From assembly GCF_006517625.1 (NCBI RefSeq), contig NZ_VHQI01000003.1:62001-126000 (forward strand): DNA of 64,000 nt. The letters run 5' to 3'. Made by a program: the position numbers and the translations under genes. This document shows, piece by piece, positions 36,073-40,246 of the stretch. Positions within the stretch are counted from its first letter, which is position 1. Every line of letters starts with the position of its first letter. The notes beneath the pieces are model-generated. The model was not told where the DNA came from and searched no databases. It worked only from the letters and a program-made list of their open reading frames with translations. Source of the DNA: Mixta tenebrionis (GTDB lineage Bacteria > Pseudomonadota > Gammaproteobacteria > Enterobacterales > Enterobacteriaceae).

Positions 36073-36093
36073 CCGCCGCAAAGGCGGTTTTTT
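36073..36093 (+). terminator. Small terminator at the left edge of the phage-like cassette
   Basis: CCGCC-GCAAA-GGCGG followed by six T. Confidence 0.7.
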
Positions 36094-36105
36094 CAGTAAA
36101 TAAAC

Positions 36106-36133
36106 TTGACACTTTTTTAATAGCTAATAGTAT
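36106..36133 (+). promoter_or_regulatory. Rightward sigma-70-like promoter
   Basis: A perfect -35 TTGACA (36106-36111) and TAGTAT (36128-36133) with a 16-bp spacer. It points at two small open frames (36151 and 36309) that run towards the repressor gene. Confidence 0.6.
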
Positions 36134-36150
36134 TTTTAATAACAAAGGTT

Positions 36151-36225
36151 ATGAAATGTGGTGAATGCGTTAACCGCCTCGTCAGCGAACTTATAAGCCG
36201 CATTCATGCTTCAGGAGGTTGTTGA
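36151..36225 (+). CDS. Possible 24-aa peptide, unknown
   Basis: MKCGECVNRLVSELISRIHA..., with CXXC near the start. The ATG is 17 bp after the promoter -10 and has AAAGG just upstream. Short, no known family; may be a leader peptide or the remnant of an early phage gene. Confidence 0.3.
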   Translation: MKCGECVNRLVSELISRIHASGGC

Positions 36226-36308
36226 AGCATAGTTAACCCACGGAGCGGCGCTGTAGCGTCGATGGGAAGTTGGATAACTGACGGGCTGAGTAGCTGAAGA
36301 GGTTCGCC

Positions 36309-36509
36309 ATGATTTATGTCTTATATCGTGTCGCCGGTGGGCAATATTGCGAAATTACCTTACCGGATGAAGATGTGGCGGCTTACCGGCGCAGATCACG
36401 GATTAAAAAGATAGCGACGCCGACAAGTTCGGCTGATGAGGAGAGTTCTACCGCTGGCAAGCGCGGGTCATCTACGGTCAGGAAGCCGTTGGACGGACCT
36501 TCGAGATAG
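36309..36509 (+). CDS. Possible 66-aa protein, antisense to the repressor 3' end
   Basis: AGAGG lies at good spacing before the ATG. The first 26 residues (MIYVLYRVAGGQYCEITLPD...) look protein-like; the rest is Ser/Arg-rich and lies antisense to the repressor C-terminus (from 36383). It could be a truncated phage gene that now reads into foreign sequence, or a true convergent overlap. Confidence 0.35.
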   Translation: MIYVLYRVAGGQYCEITLPDEDVAAYRRRSRIKKIATPTSSADEESSTAGKRGSSTVRKPLDGPSR

Positions 36510-36985
36510 CGATAGACGCTGATGCGTTCGTTAAGCCGGGCGATAACAAGGTCGCCTGATTCCGGCGGAAGATCGGTATCGACGATCACGATACTGCCCG
36601 CAGTGGCTTCAGCGCAACCGCTGTTGCGGTCGATAAGATAGGCTCGCCAGGTTTTTTTGGCGCGGATGCCATTAGGGGTGGTGACGGTTTCGCCGGTTTT
36701 ACCGGCCAGCGTCCAGACAGGCACGTCACTGGCCGCGGGAGCTTGCGAAAAGCCTTCTTTAGCTGAAGGCCCTTGCATCTCTCCCTGACCTTTGGCCAGC
36801 CACTCAACGTTGACGTTGAGCGCTGCCGCGATGTCGACCAGCTTACGCGAGCCGGCAGCCTGACCTTTCGTCAGGCGCCAGATAGTCGGCTGAGAAACGC
36901 CGGATGCTTTTGCCAAAGCACCCTGCGTCATCCCGGCCATTGTCATCGCCATATTGAGCCGCGTAGCAAGAGAATCTGTTTTCAT
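36383..36985 (-). CDS. Phage-type repressor, XRE helix-turn-helix with S24-like C-terminal domain
   Basis: 200 aa. The N-terminal XRE HTH (MTQGALAKASGVSQPTIWRL, about residues 19-38) is joined by a linker to a LexA/CI-type domain (AGSIVIVDTDLPPESGDLVIARLN). The Ser-Lys dyad expected of a self-cleaving repressor is not evident: the usual serine position reads GSIVIVD. SOS cleavage is therefore doubtful. I start at 36985, which puts the HTH near the N-terminus; no RBS is seen, so the message may be leaderless. Divergent from the lysozyme gene and the likely regulator of it. Confidence 0.85.
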   Translation of the reverse strand: MKTDSLATRLNMAMTMAGMTQGALAKASGVSQPTIWRLTKGQAAGSRKLVDIAAALNVNVEWLAKGQGEMQGPSAKEGFSQAPAASDVPVWTLAGKTGETVTTPNGIRAKKTWRAYLIDRNSGCAEATAGSIVIVDTDLPPESGDLVIARLNERISVYRYLEGPSNGFLTVDDPRLPAVELSSSAELVGVAIFLIRDLRR

Positions 36986-37050
36986 AAACGAAAATTTATA
37001 GCGTGCCGTATTGTTCGTCAAACACGCTTTGCTATCGCCTGAATTTATAC

Positions 37051-37088
37051 GTTTTGTTATGGATTCTCAGCATTATACATAACAGAAC
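37051..37088. promoter_or_regulatory. Candidate repressor operator
   Basis: GTTTTGTTATG (37051-37061) and CATAACAGAAC (37078-37088) are inverted repeats matching at 10 of 11 positions, 16 bp apart. AACGAAAA occurs next to the right arm (37086-37093) and again at 36987-36994 beside the repressor start. They lie between the divergent repressor and lysozyme genes. Confidence 0.5.
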
Positions 37089-37157
37089 GAAAACCACCAA
37101 TGTGTCGGAGCCAATTTTTACTAAGGTCGCGGGTTAGCCGTAAAAAGGAGCGTAAAG

Positions 37158-37628
37158 ATGAGCGAAATAATAAAAATTCTTAAATTTGAAGAGGGTTATC
37201 GGGCCAAACCTTATATCGATACCGAAGGTTTTCCTACCGTGGCTTACGGCATCAAGCTTGGGCCACGCGGCTGCCCGATAGAGCACTATACCTTTACGGT
37301 ACCTGAGGCGGTAGGCAGTATCTGGCTGGAAAATCTGTTAGCGAATAACAGGTTGCAGATGAACGGCATTCCAGCGATTGTCGATGCGCTTCAGCACTGT
37401 AACCAACCACGTAGCGATATTTTATACAGTATGGCATGGCAAATGGGCGTTGACGGCCTTGCCGGTTTTAAAAATACGCTGGCCCTGATTGCGCAGGAAA
37501 ACTTTACTGCCGCCGCCAGCAGTATGTTGATGAGCAAGTGGGCACGACAAACGCCCAATCGGGCGAAGCGTCATGCTGAAGCGATGCGTAGCGGTAGTTA
37601 TCAAAGCTACAAAGGGGTGATCATATGA
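37158..37628 (+). CDS. T4-type lysozyme/endolysin (GH24)
   Basis: 156 aa. Cleaves the peptidoglycan glycan chain. The T4 lysozyme triad is recognisable as Glu11, Asp21 (YIDTEG) and Thr27, with one extra residue relative to T4. QMGVDGLAGFKNTL and SKWARQTPNRAKRHAEAMRSG match the T4 C-terminal lobe. No signal or SAR sequence, so it needs a holin to cross the membrane. AAGGAG precedes the ATG. The stop overlaps the next gene (ATGA). Confidence 0.92.
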   Translation: MSEIIKILKFEEGYRAKPYIDTEGFPTVAYGIKLGPRGCPIEHYTFTVPEAVGSIWLENLLANNRLQMNGIPAIVDALQHCNQPRSDILYSMAWQMGVDGLAGFKNTLALIAQENFTAAASSMLMSKWARQTPNRAKRHAEAMRSGSYQSYKGVII

Positions 37629-37909
37629 CTATAAAGTTAAAATTGGTAAAAGACTGGCCGGACTGGTGGCGTTGGCATTCTACGAAAGCGCTGGTGTTGC
37701 TGGGTCTGCTGCCAACCGTCTGGCATGAAATGCCGCCTGAGTGGAAAACCATGATACCAGCGAGCTGGCTGCAGGCTGCCTCTTTCATCATCATGCTGTT
37801 GGGAATACTTTCACGCATTACGCTACAAAAGGCGCCGCCGGGACAGCAGCCAATCCTGGAAGAGAGCGAGGTTGAAAATAACGATAGCGAAAATAAACAC
37901 CAGGGCTAA
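37625..37909 (+). CDS. Holin-like small membrane protein
   Basis: 94 aa. An aromatic N-terminus (KLVKDWPDWWRWHS) leads into two hydrophobic segments (about 22-32 and 47-66) and a charged C-terminal tail rich in Glu/Asn. The position right after a lysozyme gene, overlapping it by 4 bp, and the WRWHS motif fit phage holin-type proteins. Holin activity is inference. Confidence 0.7.
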   Translation: MTIKLKLVKDWPDWWRWHSTKALVLLGLLPTVWHEMPPEWKTMIPASWLQAASFIIMLLGILSRITLQKAPPGQQPILEESEVENNDSENKHQG

Positions 37910-38036
37910 ATAACAAAAACGGCAAAAAAATAATTTCCGTAATACAAGCGGAAAGGGAATTCCGCAACCTGAATTTGTGTGCTGCCTGTTTTAACAAGGA
38001 CTCAACCCTTTAATTATTTTATTCCGGAGGTTCACC

Positions 38037-39722
38037 ATGGCTGTAAATACATCTACGCAAAAAATCAGTGCTAACGGCGCGACGGATTATACCACCGATA
38101 ATACCGCCGCCTTTCAGGCGCTGCTTAATAAAGAAAGACATGTCATCGTCGATACTATTATTAATCTTTCTGCGCAGGTCAGAACTGCCTTTGAAGGGCA
38201 GATTATCGAAGGTACTGAAACGGGTGAAATCAGGCCGATCGGCGCGGATATGAGCATTAAGGCCATGGTTGCGCTGAAGCATAAACGTTGCCGGGTGCGT
38301 AATTTAAAATCGACTAACCCGCTACTGCTGCAAAGCAATGCTTCGGGCAGCGAAGGCGGACGTCAGGGAACCATCGATATCCAGGCTGACTTCTGCGTGG
38401 TAGAAGGCTGTACCATGATTAATCAGGTCAATGCGGTTATTGCCAGCACCATTCAGCGCGCTCACGGCTCGCGTATTATCGGTAATAACTTCCTCGATTG
38501 CCTTGGCGTCGGTCTGGAAGATCGCGGCGATGCGGTCAGTATCTGGGGATCCGGTACGGTGATTGCGCATAATTACGCCTCCTGTAAGGCGGGCACTGAT
38601 GGGCGAATCGCTTTCCATGCCGAAGCGCCGGTATCTGCCAACAGCGGACGCGCGGAGCTGGATGCGCAGCACATTATTATGGCGAATAACCTCGCCTATG
38701 GGCCTTTCCGCCGCCACTTTGTGATGGAGGGGATTAGCAACGGCAGTTCGATCGGCAACGTATCGATTGGCGGCGCGACCTGGTGGGGCGAGGCCTACAT
38801 TATGTGTACCAACGTGGTGGTGGAAAATACCATCAAATATACCCGTACCGCTAACGATAATCAGGGCAGCAACTGGGCGCCAAAACGCGGGGCGATTTGC
38901 GTGCAGAACTGGTCAAACAACGTCAATATTCGCTCAACGGTAGTAATGGATGAGGAGTCGCTGGGGGATGGCTTCGTGCTCGATCGCTCAACAACGGTAC
39001 AGGGCGCGCACAAACTGACGCTGCAGCTGTCAATGATCAACAAAGGCAATACCAAAAATAACGGCTTTAATCTGGTGCCGGCGGAAGATCTGCACCTGAA
39101 CAACTGCTACGCCGAAGGTTTCGCGAATCTGATAAAAACCTCGACCAGCGATTATAACAAAGTCCTGCTTACCGGCTGTCGCCTGATCGGCAACGGCACC
39201 GCCACCGGGATCCTTGTTCAGGGCGGCAGCGGCGGTACGCTCTCCATTAACCACAGTCTGATCGATGTCGGCAGCAGCGATTTCGCCGTTAACCTGCTTA
39301 ATCTGGCTAAGGTACATATCACCAGTACCGGCTATGTTGCGGGTAAATATGCCGTAGGGCTGCAGAATATCAGCGACAAGTTTGTAATGAGCAACTGTTA
39401 CAACCTTAACTCTGATGTACCGTTGAGCGTGCGCTATACCAGAATCAACGTTTCCGGCGGTTCAGCGATTCTCACCCAGGGCGACGTACCGGAAATCGAG
39501 TGGTTGTTTAACGAGAACGACGGTATTACCTGCGGCTTCGTCTACTCGCAGGCGCAGCTCAAAGCCGTCGCATCCACGGTGAATACCGTTGGCAAGGCGA
39601 TGGGTAAAATCGTGCTGGGCTACGGCGCGGATAAGAAACTGCGTTACTACTACGCGACGGCGCCAGCTGCTAACGCCAGCTGGATTTCCTTTGATAATAC
39701 TGAAACCGTAACGCCGGCATAA
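38037..39722 (+). CDS. Right-handed parallel beta-helix protein, phage tailspike/depolymerase-like
   Basis: 561 aa, no signal peptide. The N-terminus has the pectate-lyase-like signature of tailspikes (ISANGATDYTTDNTAAFQALLN, here 'NGATDYTTDNTAAFQALL'). Many beta-helix turns of the NxxIxGN type follow (GSRIIGNNFLDC, VVEGCTMINQ, LTGCRLIGNGTATGI). The C-terminus (GYGADKKLRYYYA...ASWISF) resembles tailspike end domains. Likely role: polysaccharide binding or cleavage; catalytic residues not identified. GGAGG lies upstream. It follows the lysis pair by 127 bp, and no tail or capsid genes are present. Confidence 0.8.
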   Translation: MAVNTSTQKISANGATDYTTDNTAAFQALLNKERHVIVDTIINLSAQVRTAFEGQIIEGTETGEIRPIGADMSIKAMVALKHKRCRVRNLKSTNPLLLQSNASGSEGGRQGTIDIQADFCVVEGCTMINQVNAVIASTIQRAHGSRIIGNNFLDCLGVGLEDRGDAVSIWGSGTVIAHNYASCKAGTDGRIAFHAEAPVSANSGRAELDAQHIIMANNLAYGPFRRHFVMEGISNGSSIGNVSIGGATWWGEAYIMCTNVVVENTIKYTRTANDNQGSNWAPKRGAICVQNWSNNVNIRSTVVMDEESLGDGFVLDRSTTVQGAHKLTLQLSMINKGNTKNNGFNLVPAEDLHLNNCYAEGFANLIKTSTSDYNKVLLTGCRLIGNGTATGILVQGGSGGTLSINHSLIDVGSSDFAVNLLNLAKVHITSTGYVAGKYAVGLQNISDKFVMSNCYNLNSDVPLSVRYTRINVSGGSAILTQGDVPEIEWLFNENDGITCGFVYSQAQLKAVASTVNTVGKAMGKIVLGYGADKKLRYYYATAPAANASWISFDNTETVTPA

Positions 39723-39725
39723 TTT

Positions 39726-39809
39726 ATCGGGTCCCGGCCGCCGGGCCCGATGCATTCAGGCTGGTTTTCTGTCGGGCGGGACGATTTAACCGTTAATCGT
39801 CCCGCCCGA
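39726..39809. terminator. Two strong hairpins after the beta-helix gene
   Basis: ATCGGGTCCCGG / CCGGGCCCGAT (39726-39751), then a perfect 15-bp stem TCGGGCGGGACGATT / AATCGTCCCGCCCGA with an 8-nt loop (39772-39809). Neither has a T-run, so they may act as 3'-end stabilisers rather than intrinsic terminators. Confidence 0.6.
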
Positions 39810-40246
39810 TGATTATCTGTCAGCCAGAAAGCGAGGCGCCGTGGTTAGCGCGACATTAGCTTACGGAGCGCCGCCGCTTATTGCGGCTATTTTTTATTGC
39901 GGGCAGCAGCGGGATGCGCCTCTGCGTGCCGTTTGCCCGTAACAGGAAGCAAGCAGGTTAAGTCATTATTTACTCGCTACGCCGGTATAAGCCGTAACTT
40001 TATATTCACTGATATGACTAAATAACCCTGCCGCTACGCGAGCGGCAAGAAGAAACGGGAAAATAGCCGTTTGGCTATAATAAAAAAAGATAATTGCGCT
40101 ATGATTATCTGGCGGGCAGCGGGCGTGGCGCGCAGGAACTGCGGCAGGCTGCCGTTTCGTTAATGCCGGCCTGCTTCGGTAAGCCTTCCGTATTTTCGGA
40201 AGGCATTTTTATGCCATGTATCGGCGCATTATTCACGTGAGGGATT
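39810..40246. other. Gap with a candidate short transcript ending at 40210
   Basis: TATGAT at 40099-40104 could be a -10 with no clear -35. About 105 bp later lies the terminator at 40183-40210. No open frame lies between. A small RNA is possible. Confidence 0.3.
40183..40210 (+). terminator. Terminator upstream of the secreted-protein gene
   Basis: GCCTTCCG-TATTTT-CGGAAGGC followed by ATTTTT. No gene on the + strand ends just before it. Confidence 0.8.

Follow-up and report, generated by a model that had tools for sequence, protein, structure and literature searches.

An intact phage-type cassette of repressor, lysozyme, holin and beta-helix genes in Mixta as a probable lysis-and-release unit for an exopolysaccharide-cutting enzyme

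Introduction

What does a set of phage-type genes do at a site where there is no phage? The question is raised by a 64,000-nucleotide (nt) stretch of Mixta tenebrionis DNA (contig NZ_VHQI01000003.1, positions 62,001 to 126,000; the whole stretch is called the window here and is numbered from its first letter), in which a repressor gene is divergent from an overlapping lysozyme-holin pair that is followed by a gene for a beta-helix protein of 561 amino acids (aa). A preliminary description, made from the sequence without database searches, had suggested that this small cassette is a regulated lysis or export unit for a polysaccharide-active protein rather than a decaying prophage. We found the cassette intact in all Mixta genomes examined, and like units occupied other loci in Erwinia and Pantoea. 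We take it to be a domesticated unit, controlled by the repressor, for the lysis and release of an enzyme that cuts exopolysaccharide (EPS), and put the probability of this reading at roughly 0.6; the lysis, the release and the activity are what we infer.

Results

Retention of the cassette in Mixta

The repressor, lysozyme, holin-like and 561-aa genes were all open in the open reading frame (ORF) check, and their arrangement as first described was borne out by the ORFs, Pfam, PHROGs and a structure model. The repressor matched HTH_3 (E 3.7e-8) and the phrog_4 repressor (E 4e-26), with Peptidase_S24 under its cut-off. The lysozyme matched Phage_lysozyme (E 1.6e-5) and the phrog_7 endolysin (E 2e-15), and the holin-like protein, whose gene overlaps that of the lysozyme by 4 nt, matched DUF7940 (E 4e-17) and the phrog_1356 holin (E 5e-18). 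By Pfam and PHROGs the genes of the cassette were all of phage type. PHROGs detected no integrase, capsid, tail or terminase family among the cassette and its ten flanking genes, as had been noted before; the holin and endolysin genes thus adjoin outside any phage, and the gene content of a complete or active prophage was not found at the cassette.

The repressor, lysozyme, holin and beta-helix genes were full-length and free of frameshifts in all eight Mixta genomes (genus assignments are the labels of the genome database throughout). The median ratios of nonsynonymous to synonymous substitution (dN/dS) were 0.064, 0.039, 0.158 and 0.097, respectively, and those of the housekeeping neighbours cmoB and cmoA were 0.063 and 0.069 (n = 6 or 7 for flanking genes), so that purifying selection acts on the cassette much as on these neighbours. 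The right flank, a 285-aa gene and cmoB, was kept in 7/8 genomes, the contig of G006 stopping just past the cassette; the left flank, a cutC-like gene and/or a 150-aa gene, was also kept in 7/8, with other genes there in G004. (CutC, ProA, FliE, FliF, CheV, GalF and GalE are names given here from sequence.) Cassette distances tracked cmoAB distances in seven of the eight species (Mantel r 0.70-0.84, reached in 25-47 of 5040 permutations), G006 being excluded because its contig ends right of the cassette. The same host neighbourhood was without a match to any cassette gene in all six genomes of other genera (G394, G335, G027, G252, G099 and G118). The site, shared as far as the contigs extend, the dN/dS values, the Mantel test and the cassette-free neighbourhoods indicate that the cassette was most likely acquired before Mixta diversified and has been retained since.

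A complete prophage at the site was not found in any of the eight Mixta genomes, all of which have the small cassette. Extra copies of the beta-helix gene lie directly downstream in three of them, in G001 still intact, in G007 decayed and in G005 reduced to a remnant, so decay affects the beta-helix duplicates while the cassette itself is spared. The recurrence of the four genes in 8/8 genomes together with the low dN/dS is more than chance. The lack of a prophage at the site, the lack of frameshifts and the presence of the same gene set in Erwinia and Pantoea argue that the cassette is a kept unit and no decaying prophage, as the preliminary description had supposed; we regard this as well supported.

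The beta-helix protein

The 561-aa protein had no sequence match in Pfam, NCBIfam or the PDB. Its model, based on 7 sequences (pLDDT 82, pTM 0.79), was a tailspike-like right-handed beta-helix, in agreement with the fold first proposed, and resembled the Pam1 tailspike (Z 32.2 over 442 residues, root-mean-square deviation 2.8) and the Phi92 colanidase (Z 26.4) (both VIA). Foldseek E-values against the PDB were modest, the best being 1.7e-5. Residues E161, D165, D188, E196 and E231 were invariant among 15 aligned members, which is at most suggestive of EPS cutting.

Three kinds of protein make up this family. The first comprises tailspikes of viruses or prophages, in which 177-262 residues stand ahead of the shared part (L059, L060, L165 and L168). 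The second, present in 8/8 Mixta genomes, is encoded next to galF and galE and begins with an RR-type N-terminus. The third is the cassette protein, which we call leaderless and headless; both words rest on alignments and visual inspection, not on a signal predictor. The EPS-cluster paralogue has 83-87 additional N-terminal residues with the RR motif, whereas the cassette protein begins at the beta-helix and, in the alignment, lacks both an export signal and a virion-binding N-terminal domain; the absence of a signal peptide had been noted already. Outside Mixta the family is scarce (0/52 and 3/292 genomes).

No convincing source of the gene was found. The single protein had no match in viral_contigs and among phage records matched only Bacillus phage Goe8 (31%); with the alignment as query, four distant loci were returned, including Goe8 and one Mixta prophage; the plasmid search gave one partial Cupriavidus match. 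A Mixta prophage (L060/L166) encodes a 799-aa tailspike of this family adjoining baseplate-type genes. A second leaderless beta-helix gene (66% identity), with no lysis genes adjoining, was seen elsewhere in the genome of the window (L050:11808-13496) and at L051:10079-11768, and its counterpart in G003 is split across two frames. The product of this second gene could exit the cell only via lysis genes elsewhere acting in trans.

Like units in Erwinia and Pantoea

The preliminary description had proposed a search for the same gene set at other loci, and this search was positive, with other beta-helix enzymes as cargo. Relatives of the Mixta repressor at 75% and 71% pointed to G252 and G201. 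The module of G252 (Erwinia) sits between fliE/cheV and a GGDEF-type gene and comprises the repressor and, divergent from it, genes for antiterminator Q (PF06530), lysozyme, DUF7940 holin, Rz, Rz1 and an EPS depolymerase (phrog_4250, E 1e-166). The repressor was found at at least 78% in 17 of 37 Erwinia genomes, two matches at 36-37% (G451 and G436) being left outside this set. A lysozyme and a headless depolymerase lay beside it in 17/17 modules; holin, Rz and Rz1 were present in 16/17, G442 being without them, and Q was present in all 18 Erwinia-type loci (the 17 and G201). Median dN/dS was 0.080 for the repressor, 0.111 for the lysozyme, 0.177 for the holin, 0.197 for Rz and 0.107 for the depolymerase over 15 of the 18 loci, after exclusion of two near-duplicates (G445 and G421) and of G201, which belongs to another genus. 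G252 also carries a third variant, in which another S24 repressor faces lysozyme, holin and depolymerase genes.

Two minor features were noted in Erwinia. A DinI-like gene (L131:12108-12404) lies near the third variant, with a Phage_holin_8 gene at L131:6906-7373, and two holin ORFs, L156:6511-8055 (514 aa) and L157:6758-7540 (260 aa), have long C-terminal low-complexity repeats, as against the usual length of about 115 aa.

The Pantoea module, as in G335, lies downstream of proA and has an unrelated S24 repressor and an N antiterminator (PF25694), followed by lysozyme, holin, Rz/Rz1 and a headless depolymerase. Among 61 Pantoea genomes the headless depolymerase was full-length in 49 and broken in 4. 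Repressor, N, lysozyme and holin sequences occurred in that order at all 53 loci, 45 of which were intact in these four genes and the depolymerase. Spanin genes were present in most modules (L224 is without), and a tRNA-Thr gene lay downstream in 2 of 5 loci scanned. For the 45 loci without a broken gene, dN/dS was 0.070-0.129 vs 0.075 for proA.

A further arrangement was found in G027 near fliE/fliF, where a repressor relative (57%) is accompanied by a P21-type holin, a lysozyme of another kind, Rz, a depolymerase, colicin M (PF14859, E 1e-32) and a small membrane protein. The same set recurs on a metagenomic contig (L173), with colicin M and the small membrane protein again downstream of the depolymerase (L092:4048-5292 in G027, L173:10039-11283 on the contig). 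The lysis genes of G027 are non-orthologous. That different repressors, antiterminators and non-orthologous lysis genes stand before one kind of cargo argues for selection on the whole.

Kinship with the EPS-cluster enzyme

The Erwinia cassette depolymerase aligned to residues 169-732 of WceF (6TGF) with an E-value of 1.9e-91, so that the Erwinia and Pantoea cassette enzymes correspond to WceF minus its twin-arginine translocation (Tat) signal and head-binding-like part. In the available part of PMC7949094, WceF is described as following a Tat signal, hydrolysing stewartan and being conserved in Pantoea and Erwinia. Here, too, three kinds of protein were seen, namely phage enzymes (149 phage records matched the Erwinia cassette depolymerase), WceF-type copies in the EPS cluster and the cassette enzyme. 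The WceF-type copies have an export-type N-terminus (EPS-cluster context seen for L140 and L141; L141 matched 6TGF with E 0), and 54/61 Pantoea genomes have a longer second depolymerase copy, the context of which was not read. Cassette enzyme and EPS-cluster enzyme therefore belong to one family in Mixta (8/8) and in Erwinia (WceF, 6TGF). This shared kinship in both lineages gives a hint, rather than a measurement, that the substrate may be the host's own EPS.

The Mixta family has a member at the EPS-cluster place corresponding to that of WceF/AmsF, the beta-helix hydrolase of Pantoea and Erwinia, in 8/8 genomes. Unlike WceF/AmsF, the cassette enzymes are without a Tat signal and a head-binding-like N-terminal part, and the Mixta family has no sequence match to WceF: neither the protein nor a 15-sequence profile matched 6TGF or any other PDB entry at E up to 1. 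WceF was also not among the 50 structural matches listed, which has no bearing either way. Phage tailspike depolymerases resemble the cassette proteins in fold (Pam1 tailspike and Phi92 colanidase) and, for the Erwinia enzyme, in the phage-record matches, but the cassette protein has no N-terminal virion anchor.

Control region and an overlapping gene

All four genes of the initial inventory were present, but that inventory had overlooked a conserved 66-aa gene, encoded on the opposite strand, that runs across the repressor 3' end (Table 1). Its ORF was open in 8/8 Mixta genomes, and its N-terminus was conserved in 17/19 other module loci (the start is lost in G432 and the N-terminus has diverged in G027). 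Over codons 2-24, which lie outside the repressor, the ratio of nonsynonymous to synonymous differences (pN/pS) was 0.23 in Mixta (7 of 8 sequences; G004, whose ORF is open, was missed by the script motif) and 0.20 in Erwinia (14 sequences). The two other frames of the same stretch gave 1.1-2.6, indicating that the first 24 codons evolve as protein. The low dS of the repressor (0.36) may be due to this overlap. That the 66-aa protein is a trigger is a guess from its position. Upstream of it, the putative leader RNA had fold z-scores of -2.30 and -2.13; compensatory changes were sought as support for its structure, and none occurred in 57 pairs.

Between the repressor and lysozyme genes, two inverted arms (37050-37061 and 37078-37089) form an operator-like element. 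The catalytic Ser of S24 was kept and the Lys replaced (by Arg in 26 and His in 1) in 27/27 module repressors of the Mixta/Erwinia family, so LexA-type self-cleavage is not expected and was rejected for the Mixta repressor. A prophage relative (G113) retains the Lys, and the unrelated Pantoea-type repressor has Ser in 47/51 and Lys in 51/51. SOS control through a LexA box was rejected as well, since no CTGT-N8-ACAG site with at most one mismatch was found at the Mixta promoter; the sole such match in the cassette, at 38629, is inside the beta-helix gene, and the window holds 15 vs 13.6 expected.

Discussion

If the cassette is a lysis-and-release unit, the repressor would act through the conserved inverted repeats to silence the rightward promoter. 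Its relief would not come by LexA-type self-cleavage and might come through the overlapping 66-aa gene. Some cells would then make lysozyme and holin and accumulate the beta-helix enzyme in the cytoplasm; with the inner membrane opened by the holin and the wall by the lysozyme, the cell would burst. The freed enzyme would cut the exopolysaccharide of the population and thereby loosen the matrix.

Several observations weigh against this reading. No spanin ORF was found between the holin and beta-helix genes or elsewhere in the Mixta cassette. The substrate of the Mixta beta-helix protein is a guess, since neither WceF nor any solved structure matches it in sequence. The Mixta repressor is without the S24 lysine, and its promoter has no LexA box. 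Finally, 20/37 Erwinia genomes are without the repressor-Q module and 8/61 Pantoea genomes without the repressor-N one, and one or more genes are broken in 8/53 Pantoea modules, so the modules are dispensable there. The conserved association of the genes can reflect release, competition or something else.

Competition would mean that lysis frees a depolymerase that strips the capsule or EPS of competitors, or clears the way for bacteriocins. Colicins are usually released through lysis, and in G027 and contig L173 the depolymerase gene is followed by colicin M and by a small membrane protein that might confer immunity. However, the colicin was present in only one genome among those examined, and membership of the cassette enzyme in the family of the host EPS-cluster enzyme in both lineages points to EPS of the cell's own type, with the caveat that close kin with the same EPS would remain targets. 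On balance we consider a weapon unlikely.

That every cassette gene is of phage type would also fit a prophage remnant in slow decay, with genes surviving by chance or only for superinfection immunity through the repressor. The repressor alone would suffice for immunity, however, and the four genes are intact in all eight Mixta cassettes at dN/dS 0.039-0.158 although adjoining beta-helix duplicates (G007 and G005) do decay. Ordinary Mixta prophages (L055 and L057) have relatives of the same lysis genes and the G113 prophage has a relative of the repressor, but this gene set is also found under repressors of other kinds. Even with the Pantoea modules near or at tRNA-Thr and the broken ones taken into account, slow decay appears very improbable. 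Non-lytic secretion, in which holin and lysozyme release a folded protein and the cell survives, would fit the lack of spanins in the Mixta cassette, and a holin-dependent secretion of this kind is argued in the accessible part of PMC9527704, but we give it little credence, given that Rz/Rz1 are retained in the Erwinia and Pantoea modules and that lysis was demonstrated for the cassettes of Yersinia entomophaga and Serratia marcescens (PMC10847048, in the part available).

The lysis-and-release unit proposed here is closest to the type 10 secretion systems, which the same part of PMC10847048 describes as holin/endolysin/spanin clusters outside phages that act by lysis. Like ChiWXYZ of S. marcescens and YenLC of Y. 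entomophaga, the cassette has a holin and an endolysin that derive from phages but lie outside one, with regulators nearby, and a leaderless cytoplasmic cargo; the Erwinia and Pantoea modules have spanins in addition. We have not filed the Mixta cassette as a type 10 member because it has none. In further contrast to type 10, the cargo in Mixta, Erwinia and Pantoea is encoded inside the unit and is probably an EPS depolymerase, and phage-type repressors with the antiterminators Q or N take the place of host regulators such as RoeA or ChiR. Colicin lysis cassettes share the suicidal release of a cytoplasmic protein, as proposed here, and the G027 module contains colicin M. They differ in that our units have a full endolysin-holin pair and a polysaccharide enzyme, with no LexA box at the Mixta promoter. 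New features are an EPS enzyme encoded within the unit, phage switches as its means of control, recurrence in which parts have been exchanged, and the 66-aa gene that overlaps the repressor gene. We found no description of these lysis-depolymerase modules of Erwinia, Pantoea and Mixta in the open-access PMC literature. A plasmid-borne lysozyme and holin activated by Lrp in P. stewartii (PMC12285263) was considered, but the part of that report available does not show it to be the Pantoea module.

A wider reading can be offered tentatively, with somewhat more doubt than confidence. Mixta, Erwinia and Pantoea may share a modular programmed lysis, in which miniaturised phage switches (repressor alone, repressor and Q, or repressor and N) have repeatedly been connected to a holin-endolysin block and to a plug-in depolymerase matched to the EPS cluster of the host; a small number of cells would lyse and so dissolve the matrix to the benefit of their kin. 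The 66-aa protein across the repressor 3' end would be the built-in trigger in the Mixta/Erwinia branch, behind a structured leader RNA in Mixta. The locus bears on how plant-associated Enterobacterales dismantle a matrix they have built themselves and on how large leaderless enzymes exit the cell, and a conserved lysis unit with its own EPS enzyme makes both questions testable. It would provide a clear case of phage lysis circuits wired several times to one output, and it suggests a possible role for headless tailspike genes, which are usually annotated as prophage debris.

Features of the locus

The features are collected in Table 1. The terminator scan listed both edge hairpins, as first described.

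Table 1. Positions of the cassette features in the M. tenebrionis window
Feature	Position	Strand	Remarks
Terminator-like hairpin with T run, left edge	36073..36087	+	Terminator scan
Promoter-like site TTGACA-N16-TAGTAT	36106..36133	+	Nearly invariant in 8 Mixta genomes; points rightward to the 66-aa ORF
Putative conserved structured leader RNA	36134..36308	+	95% mean column identity, 8 sequences
66-aa protein gene, candidate trigger	36309..36509	+	Overlaps repressor gene 3' end, opposite strand
Repressor, XRE/S24-like	36383..37021	-	TTG start; ATG at 36985 gives 200 aa; 8/8 Mixta, 93-98%
Operator-like inverted arms CGTTTTGTTATG / CATAACAGAACG, 16 nt apart	37050..37089	.	Conserved stretch in 8 Mixta genomes; putative function
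Lysozyme (endolysin), T4-type, no signal peptide seen	37158..37628	+	Pfam, PHROGs; dN/dS 0.039
Holin-like protein, DUF7940	37625..37909	+	Pfam, PHROGs; dN/dS 0.158
561-aa leaderless, headless right-handed beta-helix protein, probable EPS depolymerase	38037..39722	+	Alignment, structure model; dN/dS 0.097
Strong terminator-like hairpin, operon end	39770..39811	+	Terminator scan

Three further assignments were tried and rejected. At the operon end, the only Rfam match, to sX7 at 39763-39854, was below threshold (26.7 bits vs 55). PADLOC, searched for an anti-phage defence role, gave only HTH-level matches, for the repressor. The search for a lysozyme source gave no match in viral_contigs and a best phage match of 61% (Enterobacter phage vB_Ecl_MII_001). 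In the gap between the holin and beta-helix genes (37910-38036), conserved TTTCCG..CGGAAA..TTTCCG segments could form alternative hairpins; there is no T run, so read-through into the beta-helix gene is plausible.

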